64,000 bases of DNA from Bacillus sp. UNC438CL73TsuS30 (GTDB lineage Bacteria > Bacillota > Bacilli > Bacillales > Cytobacillaceae): positions 1-64,000 of the forward strand of contig NZ_KI535301.1 in NCBI RefSeq assembly GCF_000482325.1. Reading direction: 5' to 3'. This document shows, piece after piece, positions 8,519-50,459 of the stretch (the stretch's first letter is position 1; each line of letters begins with the position of its first letter). Below the pieces are notes generated by a model, which was not told the origin of the DNA, searched no databases, and saw only the letters and a program-made list of their open reading frames with translations. The position numbers and the translations under genes were made by a program.

Positions 8519-8776
8519 AAAAAATGCCACCGAAGTAGATTCAGGTGGCATATCAATACCCCGCATCATACCTTCCGAAAGATAGCTCAACACGATTAGC
8601 TGGTAGGGCTAATCATGACAGTTCTGTTCCTATTTGGAGACAGCCCCAGCATACTTTTATAAGAGAAAAAATATGCTTCGGCAGCTTTTCCTTTCAAACG
8701 AAGTTAACGATGTCTCTTTCATCTCGTCCGCTTTACTAATAAAAACCGCGACCTCTACCTCATCGGTTTGATGAGG
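8519..8776 (-). promoter_or_regulatory. lysine riboswitch (L-box) with terminator, controlling lysP
   Basis: Read on the minus strand, the leader has the conserved L-box signature: GATGAGGTAGAGGTCGCG at the 5' end, AGTAAAG, GAAAGGAAAAGCTGCCGAAG, TGGGGCTGTC, ACTGTCATGA and TGAGCTATC. The expression platform is TGCCACCTGAA..TTCGGTGGCA (8525-8550) followed by a T-run, a standard intrinsic terminator. Lysine binding is expected to favour the terminator and shut off lysP. A further small hairpin (AGCACC/GGTGCT, about 8468-8487) lies between the platform and the start codon. Confidence 0.95.
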
Positions 8777-9089: not shown

Positions 9090-9905
9090 TTGCAATATCT
9101 TGGAATAGTTTTCGGTTCTCTCATTGTTGCTTTTGGATTTAATCTTTTCTTAATTCCTCATCAAGTCTTAAGTGGAGGAATGAGCGGAATTTCCATGATT
9201 CTAGGGATGATTACCCCATTAAATACGGGATTTGCAAACTTTCTTTTGAATCTTCCGTTATTAATTATTGGATATAAAATGCTCGGACGAAGATTAATTA
9301 TTAATTCAATCCTATCCGTAATCATTATTTCGATTGGTCTTTATATCATTCCTGTTCATGCCATCGCGCAAGATAAAATACTTTCTTCTATATTTGGAGG
9401 AGCGATTACGGGACTTGGGGTCGGGATGGTATTTCGCAGCTCTGGATCAACAGGCGGTTTTGATATCATTAGCATGATTCTAGCAAGAAAAATGGATTTT
9501 CCAATTGGTGCCCTTCTATCCGGGATGAACGGTGTAGTCATAATCATCAGTGGATTTTTATTTAATTGGGATTCTGCTCTCAATACATTGGTCTCCATTT
9601 TTGTTACCGGTAAAGTGGTCGATGCCATTTATACGGACCATGCCAAGCTTACTATTATGATAATTACTGAAAAAGGCGAAGAAATGCGGAAACATCTGCT
9701 GTCTAATTTATACAGAGGTTTAACCATAATGGATGGAGTAGGCGGTTACTCTAATAACAAAAGAAATATTTTAGTCACGGTTATTTCCAGGTATGAATTA
9801 AATGATGTTAAGAATCTCATCTCTGAGGTGGATACCTCAGCATTCGTTAATATTACCGAAACAATTGAAGTAATGGGACTGTTTCATCGACCCAGTCCAA
9901 ATTAG
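9090..9905 (+). CDS. YitT family membrane protein with DUF2179 domain (paralogue 1)
   Basis: A 271-residue protein with an N-terminal five- or six-helix membrane domain (first 150-160 residues), containing the family patterns IPHQVLSGGMSGISMIL, LLNLPLLIIGYKMLG and STGGFDIISMILARK. It is followed by a cytosolic DUF2179 domain (TIMIITEKGEEMRKHLLSNLYRGLTIMDG). The function of YitT proteins is unknown. The TTG at 9090 is chosen because AGGAGGGG (9074-9081) lies 8 bases upstream; a TTG at 9057 would place that ribosome site inside the gene. Two paralogues are at 18025 and 40185. Confidence 0.85.
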   Translation: MQYLGIVFGSLIVAFGFNLFLIPHQVLSGGMSGISMILGMITPLNTGFANFLLNLPLLIIGYKMLGRRLIINSILSVIIISIGLYIIPVHAIAQDKILSSIFGGAITGLGVGMVFRSSGSTGGFDIISMILARKMDFPIGALLSGMNGVVIIISGFLFNWDSALNTLVSIFVTGKVVDAIYTDHAKLTIMIITEKGEEMRKHLLSNLYRGLTIMDGVGGYSNNKRNILVTVISRYELNDVKNLISEVDTSAFVNITETIEVMGLFHRPSPN

Positions 9906-33027: not shown

Positions 33028-33170
33028 TTTATCAGCGATAATTTAAAAGGTTTAAAATTTTTTAAAAAGTATATTTACTTTTTCGGTTTAAAGTTGTAAA
33101 CTTTAAAATAATTCAGGCATAAACACTATTGATATAGTAAAAATATGTTATTTTTTAAAAATAAATAATT

Positions 33171-33277
33171 CCTTATCGCGAGTGGTGGAGGGACAGGCCC
33201 TATGAAACCCGGCAACCGCTGTTTGATTCAAACAGAAGGTGCTAAATCCTGCAGAGTACATACTCTGAAAGATAAGG
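33171..33277 (+). promoter_or_regulatory. SAM-I riboswitch (S-box) of the nucleoside-transport operon
   Basis: Classic S-box layout: P1 arm CCTTATC (33171-33177) pairing with GATAAGG (33271-33277), GAGTGGTGGAGGGACAGGCC, CTATGAAACCCGGCAACCG, AAGGTGCTAAATCCTGCAGA and the P4 hairpin GAGTACATACTC. The terminator at 33296-33327 follows, as usual for SAM-dependent premature termination. The region 33028-33170 upstream is very AT-rich and must hold the promoter, but I see no unambiguous -35/-10 pair. Confidence 0.97.
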
Positions 33278-33295
33278 GAGAGTCGAGGTGAAAAT

Positions 33296-33327
33296 GCGCT
33301 CTTCCTAATGGGAAGGGCGCTTTTTTT
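33296..33327 (+). terminator. expression-platform terminator of the SAM riboswitch
   Basis: GCGCTCTTCC (33296-33305) / GGAAGGGCGC (33311-33320), then seven T. High SAM should favour this stem and stop transcription before the lipoprotein gene. Confidence 0.93.
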
Positions 33328-33404
33328 GCTCTACATAATCATGGTTATACTTTTTCCTAAAAAAGGAAGAAATTATATTATAAAAATAAATGAGGGGGAT
33401 CAAC

Positions 33405-34418
33405 ATGAAGAAACTAGCATTAATCGTTACGATTTTTGCCTTTTTGTTAGCAGGCTGCGGAGGGGCAAATTCTTCTTCTTCAAAAAGCAAGGAGAAAGGT
33501 TCAGAAAAGAAGCGTGTTGCGTTAATTTTACCGGAAAAAATTGGGGTGAACCCTTTCTTCCAACAAATGGATGAAGGCGCTAAAAAGGCTGGAAAAGAAT
33601 TTAACGTTGATGTAAAAACCATTGAGTCAACTGACCAAGCAGCGATTGAACAAAACCTTCGTACAGCTGTAGCGGAAAATTACGATTTGATCATTACTTC
33701 TTCCTTTGAGTCAGAAGACGCTTTAAAGAAAGTAGCAACGGAAAATCCAACTAAACAATTTGCCATCATTGATACAACCGTTGATTTACCAAACGTTCGC
33801 AGTGTAACCTTCCGTGAACAAGAAGCAGCTTACCTTTTAGGAGCAGCTGCAGGTCTTTCGACCAAAACGAATAAAGTCGGGATGGTTGTAGCCATCGATG
33901 CACCGTTGATGAAGAAATGGACAGGCGGCTTCCAAGAAGGATTAAAAGCAACGAATCCAAAAGCACAATTTCTTGTAAACTATGTTGGCAGCTTTACAGA
34001 CCCGGCAAAGGCAAAAGAACTTGCCCTGCTTCAAGCCTCTAAGGGTGCAGATTTTGTTGCAGGTGCTTCAGCCGTTGGTGATTTAGGAGTATTTGAAGCA
34101 GCAAAAGAAAAAGGATTCTATACTTCGGGACAAGATGTTGACCGAACCGAAGTGGATCCAAAGCATGTTGTTCTTTCTCAATTAAAGGGAACGGATGCGG
34201 CTGCCTACGAAACCATTAAAGATTACGCAAAAGGCACATACAAAGCAGGAGTGGTTTCCTATGGTTTGAAGGAAGATGGAGTCGGGCTAACGTATGTAAC
34301 AAAAGAAAGCAAGAGTCCGCTTAATCCATTTGTTGGACAAGCGAATATCGATAAGGTAAAAGCCATTAAAGATGACATCATTTCCGGTAAGGTAACGGTA
34401 ACAGACCCGTTAAAATAA
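33405..34418 (+). CDS. nupN: BMP-family nucleoside-binding lipoprotein (NupN-like)
   Basis: 337 residues; lipoprotein signal with lipobox LLAGCG (Cys near residue 18), then a Ser-rich linker and the Bmp/Med/PnrA fold (VALILPEKIGVNPFFQQMDEGAKKAG, LIITSSFESEDALKK, EQEAAYLLGAAAGLSTKTNKVGMVV, DFVAGASAVGDLGVFEAAKEKGFYTSGQDVDR). It binds a nucleoside outside the membrane for the downstream ABC importer. GAGGGGGA lies 5 bases before the ATG at 33405. The gene sits directly behind a SAM riboswitch, unlike CodY-controlled B. subtilis nupN, which hints at a sulfur-containing nucleoside ligand. Confidence 0.9.
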   Translation: MKKLALIVTIFAFLLAGCGGANSSSSKSKEKGSEKKRVALILPEKIGVNPFFQQMDEGAKKAGKEFNVDVKTIESTDQAAIEQNLRTAVAENYDLIITSSFESEDALKKVATENPTKQFAIIDTTVDLPNVRSVTFREQEAAYLLGAAAGLSTKTNKVGMVVAIDAPLMKKWTGGFQEGLKATNPKAQFLVNYVGSFTDPAKAKELALLQASKGADFVAGASAVGDLGVFEAAKEKGFYTSGQDVDRTEVDPKHVVLSQLKGTDAAAYETIKDYAKGTYKAGVVSYGLKEDGVGLTYVTKESKSPLNPFVGQANIDKVKAIKDDIISGKVTVTDPLK

Positions 34419-34435
34419 TCGCTTAATGCATAGTA

Positions 34436-34472
34436 GGGAAGCTATCTAAAGAGTTTTAGAAGATAGCTTCCC
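34436..34472 (+). terminator. strong intercistronic hairpin after the binding-protein gene
   Basis: GGGAAGCTATCT (34436-34447) / AGATAGCTTCCC (34461-34472), a perfect 12-bp stem with a 13-base loop and a short T-tail. It probably protects the binding-protein mRNA and lets only part of transcription continue, giving excess binding protein over the importer. Confidence 0.7.
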
Positions 34473-34511
34473 TTTCACCATGAAAAACAGGTTTGAAGGG
34501 AGATAAAAAGG

Positions 34512-36038
34512 ATGCCTCGATTGGAAATGAAAAACATGACAAAGCGTTACGGAAATTTTGAGGCAAACTCTGATGTATCGTTTTCCTTAAATCCCGGGGA
34601 AGTCCATGCCATTGTTGGGGAAAACGGGGCTGGAAAAACTACTCTAATGCGCATGTTATATGGATTAGAACAGCCGAGTGCCGGCTCTATTTTGCTTGAT
34701 GGCAAGCAGGTTGACTTTAAAAGTCCATTAGACGCACTAAGTCATGGCATCGGCATGGTTCATCAGCATTTTATGTTAATTCCAAATTTAACGGTGACAG
34801 AAAATATTGTCATTGGACGCGAGCCTAAGAAGGCAGGATTTTTTAATCGTAAGAAAGCGGCTGAATTGGTTTCAGAGGTTTCAAACAATTTTGGAATTCC
34901 TGTTAGACCAACCGTTAAGGTGTCGGAGTGTTCTGTCGGGGAACAGCAGCGCATCGAAATTGTCAAAGTCCTTTACCAAGGGGCCGACATCATCATTTTG
35001 GACGAACCGACAGCGGTGTTAACCCCTTTAGAGGTAAAAGAATTGCTTAAGACGATTCGGTTTTTAGCAGAAAAGGGGAAGAGCATCATCCTTATTACCC
35101 ACAAGCTGCATGAAGTAATGGAAGTGGCAGATCGGGTAACGGTATTAAGAGGAGGTAAGGTAACTGGAACTTTTCAAATCGTGGATACGAATGCAGATGA
35201 ATTAGCGAAAAGGATGGTTGGCCGGGACCTCGTTCAATTAAAGGATCGTAAACAAACAGTTGGAAATGAGTTCCTTAAGGTTCAGGGAATAACGGTCCAA
35301 GGGAAATCCGAAAAACCTTTACTCGATGGTATTACCTTTTCTGTCTCTGAGGGTGAGATTGTCGGGATTGCCGGTGTTTCCGGCAATGGCCAATCCGAAT
35401 TGCTTCAGGCGATATCGGGACTGATCGAGGTGGAGCAAGGCAGGATTGAACTAGGGGGAACAGAGATTACTCGTTCGTCCGTTAAGTATAGAAGAGAAGC
35501 GGGTTTAGCCCATATCCCGGAAGACCGCTATTTATGGGGGGCGGCAAAAGAGGCAAGTGTCGAAGAAAATGCCTTTATGGGATACCATCGTAACTCTGTT
35601 TTTTCGAAAAAGAATTGGTTATTAAAAAGAGATTTTCAACAAATCGTCAAAAAATGGATTGGCAAATATTCAATAAAGGCTGGTGCCTTAAACAACAACG
35701 CCGGGAATTTATCTGGCGGAAATTTACAAAAACTGATCGTTGCCAGAGAGCTCGGACACGAGACCCCATTTCTCATCGCTGCTGAACCGACAAGAGGGGT
35801 TGATATCGGTGCAATGGAGGTCATTCATGATGCCCTTATGGAAAAACGAAACGAGGGTGGAGCGATTCTTCTCGTCTCTTCCGAGTTAACGGAAATTATG
35901 ACTTTATCGGACCGAATCCTTGTGATGTATGAAGGCAGAGTGGTTGGGGAGTTATCCGGGAAAGAGGCAACCGAAGAAAAATTAAGTATTTTGATGGCAG
36001 GAGGAACTTTAAATGAATCGATTGAGACAACAGCTTAA
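34512..36038 (+). CDS. nupO: nucleoside ABC transporter ATPase (NupO-like)
   Basis: 508 residues with two fused ABC domains, as in sugar/nucleoside importers. The first has Walker A GENGAGKTTLM, signature-region CSVGEQQRIEIVKVLYQGADIIILDEPTAVLTP and H-loop LITHKL. The second has degenerate Walker A GVSGNGQSELLQ and LSGGNLQKLIVARELGHETPFLIAAEPTRGVDIG. It powers import through the two permeases downstream and overlaps the next gene by 26 bases. Confidence 0.93.
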   Translation: MPRLEMKNMTKRYGNFEANSDVSFSLNPGEVHAIVGENGAGKTTLMRMLYGLEQPSAGSILLDGKQVDFKSPLDALSHGIGMVHQHFMLIPNLTVTENIVIGREPKKAGFFNRKKAAELVSEVSNNFGIPVRPTVKVSECSVGEQQRIEIVKVLYQGADIIILDEPTAVLTPLEVKELLKTIRFLAEKGKSIILITHKLHEVMEVADRVTVLRGGKVTGTFQIVDTNADELAKRMVGRDLVQLKDRKQTVGNEFLKVQGITVQGKSEKPLLDGITFSVSEGEIVGIAGVSGNGQSELLQAISGLIEVEQGRIELGGTEITRSSVKYRREAGLAHIPEDRYLWGAAKEASVEENAFMGYHRNSVFSKKNWLLKRDFQQIVKKWIGKYSIKAGALNNNAGNLSGGNLQKLIVARELGHETPFLIAAEPTRGVDIGAMEVIHDALMEKRNEGGAILLVSSELTEIMTLSDRILVMYEGRVVGELSGKEATEEKLSILMAGGTLNESIETTA

Positions 36039-37083
36039 TGCCCTAATACAGCCGATTCTAGCCATCGTTCTTGGTTTGATTGTCGGTATGGCGGCCATTC
36101 AAATCGTCCATGGTTCGATTATCCAAACCTATACCGAAATGTGGAATGGCGCCTTTGGGAACTTCTATTTCTTTACTTCCACTTTAGCGAGAGCGACTCC
36201 AATTTTACTTATCGCCCTAGGTGTCGGCTTTGCGTTTCGGGCCGGGGTCTTTAATCTTGGTGCAGAAGGTCAGTTGGTTTTTGGCGGCATTGCTGCAGCC
36301 TTAACGGCGTTGTATTTACCCGGACCATTCGTTGTGAAAATGATCGGTGCCCTTTTGGCAGGAATTATGGCGGGAGGAGTATGGTCACTATTAGCGGGTT
36401 GGATGGAGTTAAAGTTTAAGGTTCAATTGGTTATTTCTACCTTGCTCTTAAACTATATTGCTACTTATTTTGCTAGTTATCTAGTTTCAAAACCGTTTCA
36501 AGACCGGACCGGATCGGCGGCATTGGCCCAGACAAAAATGCTCGATGCACATCTCTGGCTGCCAAAATTATTCGCGGGTATGCCCGTACACCTTGGCTTT
36601 GTCTTCGCCATCCTATTTGCCCTCGTGTTATATATTTGTTTCCGATTTACTTCGACAGGGTATCAAATTTCCATGCTGGGAAAAAATCCTTTTTTCGCGT
36701 CCTATGGGGGGATTCATAAGCAAAAAATTACGCTACTCTCGATGTTTATCAGCGGGGCCTTATCAGGACTCGCCGGTACGTTTGAAATTATGGGAACACA
36801 CTACCGTTTTATTGATGGTGCTTTAACGGCTCCAAGCTATGCCTGGACAGGCTTAATGGCTGCCTTATTGGCCAATTCGAATCCGATTGGGACCATCTTT
36901 ACCTCAATTTTACTTGCTGCACTGCAGACGGGGGCGATGGGAGTAGAACGAAATACCGATGTACCGCTTGAGATTTCTAGCGTGATTCAGGCCGTTATTA
37001 TTCTATTTATATCAGCTAAGTTTGCTTTTAAAGGCTTTAAAGTCATCAAGAAAAGGAGGAAGGCAGATGGAGCAGCTGTTTGA
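36013..37083 (+). CDS. nupP: nucleoside ABC transporter permease (NupP-like)
   Basis: 356 residues with about 8-9 membrane helices and the permease signature ATPILLIALGVGFAFRAGVFNLGAEGQLVFGGIAAA. ATG overlaps the ATPase gene. Near the end, LANSNPIGTIFTSILLAALQTGAMGVER matches the conserved C-terminal half of the family. It forms a heterodimer with the next permease. Its 3' end overlaps that gene by 17 bases. Confidence 0.92.
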   Translation: MNRLRQQLNALIQPILAIVLGLIVGMAAIQIVHGSIIQTYTEMWNGAFGNFYFFTSTLARATPILLIALGVGFAFRAGVFNLGAEGQLVFGGIAAALTALYLPGPFVVKMIGALLAGIMAGGVWSLLAGWMELKFKVQLVISTLLLNYIATYFASYLVSKPFQDRTGSAALAQTKMLDAHLWLPKLFAGMPVHLGFVFAILFALVLYICFRFTSTGYQISMLGKNPFFASYGGIHKQKITLLSMFISGALSGLAGTFEIMGTHYRFIDGALTAPSYAWTGLMAALLANSNPIGTIFTSILLAALQTGAMGVERNTDVPLEISSVIQAVIILFISAKFAFKGFKVIKKRRKADGAAV

Positions 37084-37987
37084 TGTTTCGTTGTTAAGTT
37101 CAACCATCCGCATGGTGGCTCCGATTCTGTTAGCTGCCCTTGGCGGAATGCTTTGCACCCGGGTCGGAATTTTTAATGTGGGCTTAGAAGGGCTGATCAT
37201 AACAGGTGCCTTCACAGCGGTTGTCGGAAATTATTATACCCATAGCCTTATTTTAGCTGTCCTTATGGCGGCAGCGAGCAGTGTGCTGCTTTCCCTTTTA
37301 TTTGGCTTCATGACGATTAAAATGAAGGCCAATGAAATTGTGGTTGGGGTCGCGATTAACTTTTTAGGATTAGGCCTGACGACTTTCTTTTTACGAACGA
37401 TCTTTCATGTGAAAGGTGCGTATTACAACAAAGATATGGAGGGCTTACCACACTGGAAGATCCCAGTGATCGATAAAATTCCTTTTTTAGGTGATGTGTT
37501 TTCAGGGCACTCCCCACTAGTTTATTTGGCCATTATATTAGCCATTTTATTCTATATCTTTTTTTACAAAACCGTTGCAGGTTTTCGTATGCTTGCTGTT
37601 GGATTCAATGCAGCAGCTTCGAAAACAGTCGGTATAAAAGTACAGGCCTGGCAATACTTAGCCATTGCCTTATGCGGTGCGCTTTGCGGGCTTGCAGGTG
37701 CACAGCTTTCCTTAGGACAGGTAACGATGTTCTCAGAAGGTATGAGTTCCGGCAGGGGATTTATTGCATTGGTGGCAATGATGCTGGGACAATCACATCC
37801 AATTGGAGTATTGGCTTCAAGTCTATTATTTGGATTAATGGATGCACTAAGTACTAGATTACAAGGGTTATCGGTTCCGACCCAATTTACGATGATGATT
37901 CCATTTGTTTTAACTCTTCTCGCCATGTTCTTCTTAAAGGATAAGGGCGTCGATCAAAATCAATCAGGCCAGCAAAGTTCTAGGTAA
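37067..37987 (+). CDS. nupQ: nucleoside ABC transporter permease (NupQ-like)
   Basis: 306 residues from ATG 37067, which follows AGGAGG. Signature VAPILLAALGGMLCTRVGIFNVGLEGLIITGAFTAVVG near the N-terminus and GRGFIALVAMMLGQSHPIGVLASSLLFGLMDALSTRL near the end are typical of the shorter of the two family permeases. Second half of the importer channel; 15 bases from the next gene. Confidence 0.92.
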   Translation: MEQLFDVSLLSSTIRMVAPILLAALGGMLCTRVGIFNVGLEGLIITGAFTAVVGNYYTHSLILAVLMAAASSVLLSLLFGFMTIKMKANEIVVGVAINFLGLGLTTFFLRTIFHVKGAYYNKDMEGLPHWKIPVIDKIPFLGDVFSGHSPLVYLAIILAILFYIFFYKTVAGFRMLAVGFNAAASKTVGIKVQAWQYLAIALCGALCGLAGAQLSLGQVTMFSEGMSSGRGFIALVAMMLGQSHPIGVLASSLLFGLMDALSTRLQGLSVPTQFTMMIPFVLTLLAMFFLKDKGVDQNQSGQQSSR

Positions 37988-38002
37988 GGAGGAGAAAATA
38001 GA

Positions 38003-38668
38003 ATGAATAAAGCAGAAAAAATTAAAAAAATGAAAGTACCGGTTAATGATAATCCCGAATTAGCATCCCGGCTTCCTCAAGGGCAAGTTCTCACGGAACG
38101 GTTCCCGATTCTTCATGAGGGTGAAATCCCAACCTATGATTTGGAAAATTGGACGCTCAAATTATTTGGTGAAGTTGGAGAGGAAAAAGTTTTTAAGTAC
38201 GCAGATATTCTAGCCATGCCACAATCATCTGTAACGTGCGATATTCATTGTGTAACAAGATGGTCAAGGTTTGATAATACGTTTCAAGGTGTTTTATTTA
38301 AAGATTTTATAGAAGCTGCCGGAGTAAATCCGACCGGAAAATATGTGATGGTCCATGGCGATCAGGATTATACTGCCAATGTACCACTTGAAGATTTATT
38401 ACGGGATGACTGTATTTTAGCGCATACCTTTGAGGGAAAGCCGCTGTCTGCTAAGCATGGCTGGCCGCTTCGCCTTGTGCTGCCGCATTTATATTTTTGG
38501 AAAAGTGTCAAATGGGTGCGGGGATTCCAATTTATGGAGGAAAACCAACCCGGCTTTTGGGAACAAAACGGTTTTCATTTAAATGGCGATCCCTTTAAAG
38601 AAGAAAGATTTTCAGGAGAAGATCTGCCAATTCCAGAGGATGAATGGGAGCACAAAGATTATGACTAA
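38003..38668 (+). CDS. sulfite-oxidase-like molybdopterin oxidoreductase (YuiH-like)
   Basis: 221 residues carrying the sulfite-oxidase fold core: LTERFPILHEGEIPTYDLENWTLKLFGEVG, then the Mo-ligand Cys segment SVTCDIHCVTRWSRFDNTFQGV, YVMVHGDQDYTANVPLEDLL, LAHTFEGKPLSAKHGWPLRLVLPHLYFWKSVKWVRGFQF. No Tat or Sec signal, so it should be cytosolic. It resembles B. subtilis YuiH; the substrate is unknown. It is embedded in the SAM-riboswitch operon and overlaps the phosphorylase start, so a sulfur-compound role is attractive but unproven. Confidence 0.85.
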   Translation: MNKAEKIKKMKVPVNDNPELASRLPQGQVLTERFPILHEGEIPTYDLENWTLKLFGEVGEEKVFKYADILAMPQSSVTCDIHCVTRWSRFDNTFQGVLFKDFIEAAGVNPTGKYVMVHGDQDYTANVPLEDLLRDDCILAHTFEGKPLSAKHGWPLRLVLPHLYFWKSVKWVRGFQFMEENQPGFWEQNGFHLNGDPFKEERFSGEDLPIPEDEWEHKDYD

Positions 38669-39383
38669 TAGGCTGCCAAATTTAAAAATCAATCCGGAGG
38701 AACTCCCAAAACGTGTTCTAGTCTGTGGTGACCCTTTTCGAGCAAAGAAAATTGCCTCTTTACTAGAAGATGCCACACTTTTAGCTGAAAGCCGAGAGTA
38801 TCATAGTTTCAAAGGAAAATGGAACGGTGTAGAGGTAGGCGTAGTTAGTCATGGGGTAGGTTCTCCTGGTGCAGCCGTTTGTTTTGAAGAATTGGCCCTT
38901 GGGGGAGTACAGCAAATCATCCGGGTCGGAACAGCTGGCTCCTATCAAGCGGATGTTACACCGGGCAGTCTTGTTATTAGTAAGGCCGCTGTCCGTTGTG
39001 ACGGGCTGACGAGTCAGTTAGTCCCGCAAGGTTTCCCGGCTGTTGCGGACGCTAAAATTGCTGAAGCGTTGGAAAAAGCATCGATCATGAACAAAGCGGA
39101 TGTTTATTCCGGAATCACCTTGACCCTAGATGTATTTTACCAAGGAGTTTTGGAATTCCCGCATGCAATTTATCAGAAAGCCGGTGTTCTCGCGGTGGAG
39201 ATGGAAATTTCCGCTTTATATATCATTTCATCGTTAAGAGGAATGAAGGCTGGAGCGATTGTGGCCATTGATGGATATGCCGATGCCGATTTACGAAATA
39301 CATACAATCCGCATACGGACAAAGTTAAAGAGGCAGTGGATGATGGAATAAAAATAGCCTTAGATGCCTTGGTTACACTTTAA
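38661..39383 (+). CDS. nucleoside phosphorylase (PNP/UDP family)
   Basis: 240 residues from ATG 38661, overlapping the previous stop by 8 bases. Family motifs: LVCGDPFRAKKIA (phosphate-loop G-D-P-x-R), VGVVSHGVGSPGAAVCFEEL, IIRVGTAGSYQADVTPGSLVIS and VLAVEMEISALYIIS (ribose-binding E-M-E). VAIDG near the end places an Asp where purine-type members carry their proton-donating Asp. The enzyme splits nucleosides with phosphate. In a SAM-responsive operon, methylthioadenosine or a related nucleoside is a plausible substrate; ordinary purine nucleosides remain possible. Confidence 0.88.
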   Translation: MTNRLPNLKINPEELPKRVLVCGDPFRAKKIASLLEDATLLAESREYHSFKGKWNGVEVGVVSHGVGSPGAAVCFEELALGGVQQIIRVGTAGSYQADVTPGSLVISKAAVRCDGLTSQLVPQGFPAVADAKIAEALEKASIMNKADVYSGITLTLDVFYQGVLEFPHAIYQKAGVLAVEMEISALYIISSLRGMKAGAIVAIDGYADADLRNTYNPHTDKVKEAVDDGIKIALDALVTL

Positions 39384-39888: not shown

Positions 39889-39920
39889 TAGAGCCGTTAT
39901 GCTAACGGCTCTATTTTATT
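39889..39920 (+). terminator. terminator after cwlJ
   Basis: TAGAGCCGTTA / TAACGGCTCTA perfect 11-bp stem with a 3-base loop, then TTTTATTT. Confidence 0.9.
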
Positions 39921-50194: not shown

Positions 50195-50234
50195 AAGAAA
50201 AATTAAAAAGCTAAAATAAATAAAACACATTGAA

Positions 50235-50459
50235 TGGGAATATTAAGGAATATTTATTGCATAGAGAGCTGTCGGCTGGTGAGAGACAGTCAATAAATTC
50301 CCCAACTCGCCCAGGAGTGGTAAAGCTGATATGTAGGTTTTACCGGTTGACAGCCGTAATCAAGTCGTTAAGTGGGTTCGTTTGTTTTTTATGCGAATCA
50401 AAAAGAGTGGTACCACGTAGGCAAAGCCTGTCGTCTCTTATGAGATGATAGGCTTTTTT
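50235..50459 (+). promoter_or_regulatory. leucine T-box leader of leuA
   Basis: Stem I elements AGAGAGCTGTCGGCTGGTGA and GAGACAGT, a specifier loop with CTC (Leu, 50306-50308, in CAACTCGCC followed by CAGGAGT), the T-box itself AGAGTGGTACCACG (50404-50417) and a terminator AGCCTGTCGTCTC / GAGATGATAGGCT (50425-50437 / 50442-50454) with a T-run. Uncharged tRNA-Leu should stabilise the antiterminator and switch leuA on. Confidence 0.92.

Follow-up and report, generated by a model that had tools for sequence, protein, structure and literature searches.

The S-box-controlled operon analysed here probably serves the salvage of 5'-modified purine nucleosides derived from S-adenosylmethionine (SAM), above all methylthioadenosine (MTA) or 5'-methylthioinosine (MTI); 5'-deoxyadenosine or 5'-deoxyinosine are probably substrates as well. 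The operon lies in a window of 64,000 nucleotides (the whole stretch of DNA analysed) from Bacillus sp. UNC438CL73TsuS30, and its six genes encode a BMP lipoprotein, an ABC ATPase, two permeases, a sulfite-oxidase-fold protein, and a nucleoside phosphorylase (NP). At low SAM, the S-box would let transcription proceed, and the lipoprotein would bind the nucleoside for uptake into the cell by the ABC importer. NP would then use phosphate to split the nucleoside into the base and 5-methylthioribose-1-phosphate (or 5-deoxyribose-1-phosphate). The single MtnA of the genome would isomerise this sugar phosphate, after which the products of mtnWXBD would yield methionine; a class II aldolase encoded beside mtnA would offer a side exit to DHAP. 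The freed base would enter purine salvage, and this would account for the PurR-box-like pairs of many relatives. The probable target of the oxidoreductase is the substrate in oxidised form.

Riboswitch leader and gene order

The leader contains an S-box (SAM-I riboswitch) aptamer at positions 33170–33278 of the forward strand, which carries all features of the operon (RF00162, 92.3 bits, gathering score 44.4, model positions 1–108 all matched). It is followed by an intrinsic terminator (33296–33320; 11-pair stem and T run), with a predicted folding energy of -19.9 kcal/mol (33269–33325). RNA folding also predicts a competing antiterminator (33275–33306; -12.7 kcal/mol over 33269–33309), in which 33275–33282, using the 3' strand of P1, pairs with 33299–33306. 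The aptamer score and the predicted terminator/antiterminator switch place the leader among SAM-I riboswitches and bear out the original prediction of an S-box with terminator ahead of the operon. Opening of the switch at low SAM would suit a methionine source. The genome has 12 S-boxes, and mtnK and mtnWXBD are among the genes that they precede.

The six genes were found where they had been predicted and belong to the families named (PF02608, ABC ATPase, two BPD_transp_2, PF00174, and PF01048), except that the NP frame likely starts at 38661 (240 aa) rather than as a 266-aa frame from 38583. From 38661, the NP gene overlaps the oxidoreductase gene by 8 bases. A probable transcript terminator (39889–39913; 11-pair stem and T-rich tail) lies downstream. 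The gene block is found again in many soil bacilli, and the predicted arrangement of S-box, BMP protein, and phosphorylase recurs in the genome comparison: the same gene order occurs in 77 of 80 loci, which argues that the operon is more than a chance assembly, and an S-box precedes it in 30 of the 80. The exceptions in order are one locus without the oxidoreductase gene (L157) and two cut at contig edges (L140 and L162); in L166 the NP match is split in two pieces. No further conserved neighbours beyond the six genes were seen when 34 of the 80 loci were examined; the only extra cluster present in at least four of them was an antisense frame within the operon. Within the family of the source genome, 14 of 20 loci have the S-box (many of these genomes are shared with the 80-locus set). 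The 50 loci with no S-box upstream weigh against the favoured reading; for one of them (L101) hardly any sequence ahead of the operon is available, and 39 belong to Paenibacillus or Cohnella, a group in which no locus has the S-box. Three points went beyond the original prediction: relatives carry a PurR-box-like layer, the oxidoreductase is an integral member of the unit, and NP is akin to Plasmodium purine nucleoside phosphorylases (PNPs).

PurR-box-like pairs (three mismatches or fewer) occur upstream of 37 of the 80 loci—23 of 30 with an S-box and 14 of 50 others, versus about 1% in controls—the motif having first been noticed in the very sequences in which it was then counted. The window leader has the S-box alone and falls outside the PurR regulon, its best PurBox pair having six mismatches, as by chance. 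Across the source genome the pattern has 33 matches per strand versus 36 in a reversed control, so that only the place-specific enrichment counts. One of the two joint best matches in this genome (two mismatches) lies 19 nt from a gene that, by eye, is GMP-reductase-like and is presumably under PurR control. The pairs in relatives agree with ordinary purine nucleoside salvage, in which adenosine, inosine, or guanosine would be imported, NP would free the base, and the S-box would link purine uptake to SAM status. We regard this explanation as unlikely in view of the residues and neighbours of NP described below, and the genome already has, by eye, an apparent PunA and two DeoD enzymes.

Phosphorylase clade, pocket, and links to mtnA

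NP (38661–39383; PF01048, 136.8 bits) falls in a clade with Plasmodium PNP and MtnA-linked NPs (support 100/100, the Plasmodium branch being long), and its closest relatives of solved structure are the Plasmodium PNPs. Its scores lie below the cut-offs for uridine phosphorylase (TIGR01718; 151.9 bits, cut-off 280.3), and below the curated cut-offs for DeoD PNP (122.4 of 230, 101.4 of 232.25, and 99.6 of 338) and MTA/SAH nucleosidase (45.6 of 169 and 24.5 of 73.8). The general acid Asp205 is kept in 78 of 79 NPs, as is the 5'-methylthio pocket (Val67 in 79/79, Val74 in 77/79, and Met182 in 78/79). NP thus has the clade placement and the general-acid Asp of Plasmodium-type PNPs, and lacks their Tyr160 and His7. 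The equivalent of the 5'-OH-binding His7 is Ile in 42 and Asn in 37 of the 79, never His, a loss that argues against ordinary nucleosides as substrates; the MtnA-linked NP of L265 retains the His. Plasmodium PNP itself cleaves inosine well, and MTI too, according to PMC3885546. There, the inosine/MTI ratio of 1.6 falls to 0.1 when His7 is replaced by Ser and to 0.3 when it is replaced by Phe (Table 1), and replacement by Ala hardly alters it (2.2). Tyr160 of the Plasmodium enzyme favours MTI, the Tyr160Phe variant having a ratio raised from 1.6 to 12. All 79 NPs have Phe160, as in inosine-preferring PNPs, which speaks against a strong MTI preference and, with the inosine activity of the Plasmodium enzyme, for ordinary purine nucleoside salvage.

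The genomic context of the clade points toward methionine salvage. Among high-scoring NP loci from elsewhere in the phylum, outside Bacilli (L255–L265; 11 of 12 rows sampled), 9 of 11 have mtnA on the same strand within 1.2 kb, compared with 0 of 14 low-scoring outgroup loci (14 of 21 rows sampled; Fisher p = 2.7e-5). When the high-scoring side is counted by genus, the figures are 5 of 7 versus 0 of 14 (p = 0.001). Weighing against the link, the other two of the 11 have no mtnA close by, and the same holds for four Bacilli NPs of the clade (L208, L220, L221, and L222), which are also without a nearby importer. One of these four, in a Brevibacillus-like genome (L220), is a lone phosphorylase directly behind an S-box, an arrangement that, like the mtnA linkage, argues against ordinary purine salvage. 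No credible S-box was found around the high-scoring loci of other classes or around the mtnA of the source genome (one match, 14.6 bits, E 0.54). The predicted co-occurrence with mtnA was also seen by presence alone: matched by handle, all 50 NP-clade genomes have MtnA versus 190 of 348 others, a comparison confounded by kinship. Judged on sequence, then, the mtnA linkage of the clade, the loss of the 5'-OH His, and the lone NP behind an S-box support the original proposal of sulfur-nucleoside salvage, in which import would be followed by cleavage for the recovery of methionine.

Some loci suggest a second fate for the sugar. In the operon L223, NP is accompanied by mtnA, a class II aldolase, and a nucleoside transporter, and L255 and L256 likewise have isomerase and class II aldolase clustered with NP. 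In L255, MtnA scores above its curated cut-off, and an MtaD-like deaminase and a methionine-gamma-lyase-like enzyme score below theirs. In the source genome, the single mtnA (L291, away from NP) is followed by a class II aldolase, 52% identical to that of L223, with no kinase beside the pair. Clusters of phosphorylase, isomerase, and aldolase were predicted earlier (PMC6079011). The main substrate might accordingly be 5'-deoxyadenosine or 5'-deoxyinosine, radical SAM waste that would be turned into DHAP by way of MtnA and the aldolase in a phosphorylase form of the DHAP shunt. We hold this to be possible but not probable as the principal role: the low-SAM S-box suits a methionine source and 5'-deoxyadenosine is without sulfur, while mtnWXBD are present in the genome (mtnK and mtnW above cut-off, mtnXBD by eye). 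Dual use is likely, which makes 5'-deoxynucleosides as much partners as rivals of the favoured MTA-type substrates. The genome already has MtnN and MtnK for MTA, a point against the favoured reading. It has no orthologue of the MTA deaminase MtaD (best match 27%, partial), so that MTA itself would not be cut if NP were strict for 6-oxopurines.

Importer and oxidoreductase

The lipoprotein (33405–34418; PF02608, 202.5 bits, cut-off 24.1) is of the BMP/PnrA type by its domain and by an LAGC motif seen by eye close to the N-terminus. Its orthologues in 21 other genomes of the family are 68–76% identical, with the next among the matches listed at 39% or less. A double ABC ATPase (34512–36038; PF00005 in two stretches) and permeases 1 (36013–37083; PF02653, 136.7 bits) and 2 (37067–37987; PF02653, 131.4 bits) complete the importer, whose ligand is most likely a sulfur-containing purine nucleoside such as MTA. 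Among NCBIfam models, one for a putative B6 ABC transporter scores best with each of the four genes. An importer for vitamin B6 or another non-nucleoside is nonetheless highly improbable, as the scores are far below cut-off (82.1 of 400 for the lipoprotein; 441.7 of 670, 138.8 of 400, and 155.6 of 465 for the others) and the fixed partner is a nucleoside phosphorylase. In favour of ordinary purine salvage, BmpD and PnrA bind ordinary nucleosides (PMC7093131), as do BMP proteins with solved structures. BMP proteins also adjoin NP in L257, L259, and L265. In a quick tree these belong to another BMP branch, outside that of the window importer, and orthology to it is not supported, so the pairing looks repeated.

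The oxidoreductase (38003–38668; Oxidored_molyb, PF00174, 142 bits) has 221 aa, comprising the catalytic domain only, with no signal peptide by eye. Its Cys83, presumably the Mo ligand by family resemblance, is invariant (78/78). The AlphaFold model (mean pLDDT 83) matches the sulfite-oxidase family in fold, and searches of solved structures and folds returned sulfite-oxidase-family and small pterin-binding matches with no clue to the substrate. Its score as the protein-methionine-sulfoxide reductase MsrP, 50.1 bits, is below the cut-off of 207, and an export signal is absent by eye. The gene is in place in 77 of 78 Bacilli operon loci uncut by a contig end and absent from all 11 high-scoring loci of other classes. 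These two distributions and the MsrP kinship fit a route, doubtful as it is, dedicated to taking up and repairing oxidised by-products of SAM, in which MTA and its sulfoxide would be imported, the sulfoxide reduced by the cytosolic Mo protein, and the MTA split. To our knowledge, no nucleoside-sulfoxide reductase has been described. The same route fits a report of MTA sulfoxide alongside MTA in human cell culture medium (PMC2219991).

Significance and comparison with known systems

Cells generally discard MTA and 5'-deoxyadenosine, or the products of these, by export. No dedicated ABC importer for nucleosides of this type appeared among the open-licence papers listed. The SAM riboswitch, together with the PurR-box-like pairs of many relatives, would mark the nutrient as methionine and purine at once. 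If the MTA-type salvage proposed here is right, many proteins labelled uridine or nucleoside phosphorylase need renaming, and a molybdenum protein of unassigned role gains a testable substrate.

The window importer resembles the PnrA/BMP importers (Treponema pallidum PnrA and Borrelia burgdorferi BmpD) in having a PF02608 lipoprotein, an ATPase, and two permeases, the component set also of Bacillus subtilis NupNOPQ, which we take to be a nucleoside importer of this type. It differs in its fixed enzyme partners and in a lipoprotein on a separate branch, at most 39% identical to the other family BMPs listed. In B. subtilis, methylthioribose is taken up via MtrA/YfnA (PMC5743806). With Bacillus methionine salvage (mtnN, mtnK, mtnA, and mtnWXBD), the chemistry would be shared from MTR-1-P onward, whereas entry in the operon would be by whole-nucleoside uptake and phosphorolysis. 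The DHAP shunt and 5-deoxyribose salvage use the same working trio, an MtnA-type isomerase and a class II aldolase together with a phosphorylase or a kinase, and some of their clusters include a transporter (PMC6079011 and PMC12632272). What sets the window operon apart is its S-box, along with the BMP-ABC importer and the oxidoreductase; the isomerase and aldolase genes are located elsewhere in the genome. NP shares with P. falciparum PNP its clade, general-acid Asp, phosphate Args, and Val/Val/Met pocket, but has Ile or Asn for His7 and Phe for Tyr160, and is a bacterial enzyme in an operon with an importer. Finally, the oxidoreductase has the catalytic-domain fold and invariant Cys in common with MsrP/YedY and the sulfite oxidases, from which it differs in having neither a dimerisation domain nor, by eye, a signal peptide.

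A SAM riboswitch ahead of a conserved six-gene operon

The original observation of an S-box and terminator preceding transporter, oxidoreductase, and phosphorylase genes on one strand is borne out in the window. A complete S-box (33170–33278, + strand, 92.3 bits) is followed by a terminator found by terminator search (33296–33320, + strand). By folding, this S-box shows the usual terminator/antiterminator switch: formation of P1 leaves the terminator free (−19.9 kcal/mol for 33269–33325), and the alternative pairing of 33275–33282 with 33299–33306 blocks it (−12.7 kcal/mol for 33269–33309). All six gene families are in place 3' of the S-box on the same strand, namely a BMP lipoprotein, a double ABC ATPase, two permeases, a molybdopterin oxidoreductase, and a PNP_UDP_1 phosphorylase (NP). 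The 93 bases separating genes 1 and 2 contain no terminator-like site. A 143-amino acid cell-wall-hydrolase-like frame (PF07486, 39451–39882) separates the operon from its probable terminator (39889–39913) and is not among recurrent neighbors in the 34 loci examined; no further gene recurs beside the six-gene unit in these loci. The window also contains a lysine riboswitch (8575–8765, − strand, 116.2 bits) and a T-box leader (50221–50441, + strand, 123 bits).

An orthologue of the BMP protein at ≥68% identity occurs in 22 of 193 family genomes (this strain's included), the next among the matches listed having ≤39% identity. The closest named phosphorylase is that of Bacillus salipaludis (95% identity). 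A genome search for the S-box/BMP/phosphorylase arrangement had been proposed. When named species were scanned, the best 80 of 103 relatives yielded 80 loci (L096–L175), chiefly from Paenibacillus, Brevibacillus, Neobacillus, Metabacillus, Robertmurraya, and Cohnella, with the six-gene order kept in 77 and an S-box ahead of the operon in 30. The exceptions in order are L157, which lacks the oxidoreductase gene, and L140 and L162, which stop at contig edges; in L166 the NP match is split in two pieces. Among family loci, whose genomes are partly shared with these 80, an S-box precedes the operon in 14 of 20. Paenibacillus or Cohnella account for 39 of the 50 S-box-less loci, and none of the loci of these genera has an S-box.

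The strain's genome, a draft with 8.76% contamination, has 12 S-boxes. Nine precede hom, an O-acetylhomoserine-sulfhydrylase-like gene, metI/metC/metH-type genes, metNPQ, sulfate-assimilation genes, mtnK, mtnWXBD, metK, and an RbsB/A/C-like importer, as assigned by eye from gene content, with mtnK, mtnW, and the importer checked further. The other three are the window's, one ahead of a methyltransferase-like gene, and one without a facing gene. The second of these (L023:9868–9976, in C10) is the genome's best at 106 bits and precedes a small methyltransferase-domain protein (9148–9729). The third (L028:8937–9035, in C1, minus strand) runs toward the 3' end of an HMGL-like gene encoded on the plus strand, with 1.6 kb to the start of the next listed minus-strand frame. 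The S-box-controlled importer at L025:781–4700 (in C7), with an RbsB-like binding protein, an RbsA-like ATPase, and an RbsC-like permease, each below its curated cut-off, is a candidate for uptake of methylthioribose or a related sugar.

The phosphorylase and the linkage of its relatives to MtnA

NP does not reach the cut-off for uridine phosphorylase, for DeoD, or for MTA nucleosidase; among solved structures, its best relatives are the PNPs of Plasmodium. P. falciparum PNP uses inosine and 5'-methylthioinosine (MTI) about equally (PMC3885546). In alignment with the Plasmodium enzyme, 79 NPs retain Asp206 (78/79), the phosphate-binding Arg45 and Arg88 (79/79 each), and the methylthio pocket (Val66, 79/79; Val73, 77/79; Met183, 78/79). 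The position of His7 is occupied by Ile (42/79) or Asn (37/79), and never by His. In Plasmodium PNP, His7 contacts the 5'-OH, and its substitution by Ser or Phe lowers the inosine/MTI ratio from 1.6 to 0.1 or 0.3, a shift toward MTI, with Ala (2.2) having hardly any effect (PMC3885546). At the position of Tyr160, however, all 79 NPs have Phe, and the Plasmodium Tyr160Phe substitution gives a ratio of 12 with loss of the MTI preference (PMC3885546), which would count against the MTI-favoring reading of His7 loss.

Matches to NP occur in 51 of 398 genomes of the class, one of which (G303, 36% identity) belongs to the outgroup score class. The oxidoreductase gene adjoins NP in 33 of the 39 class loci examined (out of 51), being absent from G303 and from five in-clade loci (L208, L211, L220, L221, and L222). 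In L220, an S-box precedes NP alone; this NP shares 83% identity with the Brevibacillus centrosporus protein. The extended form of L211, L223:7867–12710, encodes in order NP, a GntR regulator, MtnA, a Na+-nucleoside transporter, and a class II aldolase; this operon, from a family (f19) taken for Paenibacillaceae, would be a DHAP shunt of the phosphorylase type equipped with a transporter. Clusters of phosphorylase, isomerase, and aldolase have been predicted before (PMC6079011).

A phylum-wide search matched 32 of 398 genomes in two score classes, with new matches from other classes. MtnA lies ≤1.2 kb away on the same strand in 9 of 11 high-class loci of other classes (11 of 12 rows taken; farthest in L257 and L263, at ~1.1 kb) and in none of 14 low-class loci (14 of 21 rows, two of these loci short; Fisher p = 2.7e-5). 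The difference persists when the high-class loci are counted by genus (5/7 vs 0/14, p = 0.001). Of these high-class loci, 8/11 have a methionine-gamma-lyase-like gene and 3/11 a BMP gene; L255 and L256 have the order MtnA, NP, class II aldolase, MtaD-like deaminase, methionine-gamma-lyase-like gene. A different unit, consisting of a BMP-ABC importer, a His-type nucleoside phosphorylase, and an amidohydrolase, occurs in L267, L268, and L277 from other classes. Co-occurrence with mtnA had also been suggested for checking: among the 398 genomes of the class, MtnA is present in 50/50 NP-clade genomes vs 190/348 others (240 in all, matched by handle), a contrast inflated by kinship.

In a 58-protein tree, operon NPs, MtnA-linked NPs, and Plasmodium PNP form one clade (100/100, branch 1.2) that excludes DeoD and the low-class NPs; the exact place of Plasmodium PNP is unsure because its branch is long. 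With N-termini judged by eye, the 5'-OH His is kept in 12/12 low-class NPs (L242 truncated) and missing in 10/11 high-class NPs of other classes (L240/L265 keeps it; L241 truncated).

A putative salvage route and the oxidoreductase

We read the operon as serving import and phosphorolysis of MTA-type purine nucleosides. At low SAM the switch would open and the importer would bring in such a nucleoside, which the phosphorylase would cleave to a base, perhaps adenine or hypoxanthine, and 5-methylthioribose-1-phosphate. MtnA and then mtnWXBD would lead to methionine, and the base would enter purine salvage. Since MtaD was not found in the strain's genome, NP would cut MTA directly, MTI would be imported, or another deaminase would act. 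The genome has five BMP genes and five PNP_UDP proteins (by eye PunA, MtnN, two DeoD, and the window's NP). Its one MtnA has directly 3' a class II aldolase (52% identical to that of L223) and no kinase, so that no neighboring gene supplies the 5-deoxy- or 5-methylthio-ribose-1-phosphate this pair needs; the supply could come from the window's phosphorylase or from MtnK.

A redox step may also belong to this route. The oxidoreductase is conserved, consists of the sulfite-oxidase catalytic fold alone, has Cys83 in 78/78 sequences (window included), and no signal peptide was seen in it. In a fold search, small PruR proteins apart, target coverage among matches with E ≤0.001 was highest for 1xdy/1xdq, which we take to be E. 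coli YedY (MsrP). The gene is missing from L157 and from 11/11 high-class loci of other classes. The boldest reading, which we consider improbable, is a sulfoxide reductase for oxidized MTA; MTA sulfoxide has been measured alongside MTA in culture medium (PMC2219991). Searches of the open-licence literature turned up no report of this operon, and a term search of PMC3766115 gave no hit for nucleoside, methylthio, or Bmp.

PurR-box-like pairs upstream in relatives

The heptamer TGTCGAA, which resembles the Spo0A box, occurs ≤450 nt upstream of the operon in 28/50 S-box-less loci vs 1/30 S-box loci of L096–L175 (expected, 0.046 per 450 nt).

A motif pair, CGAACATT...AATGTTCG, was first spotted in S-box-less loci and scored afterwards as two 8-mers with ≤3 mismatches and an allowed spacing of 14 to 20. 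It is present upstream in 23/30 S-box loci and 14/50 S-box-less loci, against a background of 1.2% in shuffles (n = 1600) and 1.1% in random windows (n = 732), and all 37 positive loci show a spacing of 18 or 19. The window's upstream region lacks the pair (6 mismatches), and the pattern is not enriched overall in the strain's genome (33 vs 36 in a reversed control). The occurrence of these pairs beside S-boxes makes joint control of the operon by SAM and purines probable in many relatives, as expected for a nutrient supplying both. The B. subtilis PurR PurBox has a CGAA core and two 14-bp boxes with a 16–17-bp spacer (PMC8789054); the relatives' motif pair would be similar to it, provided that each box extends one base beyond the 8-mer.
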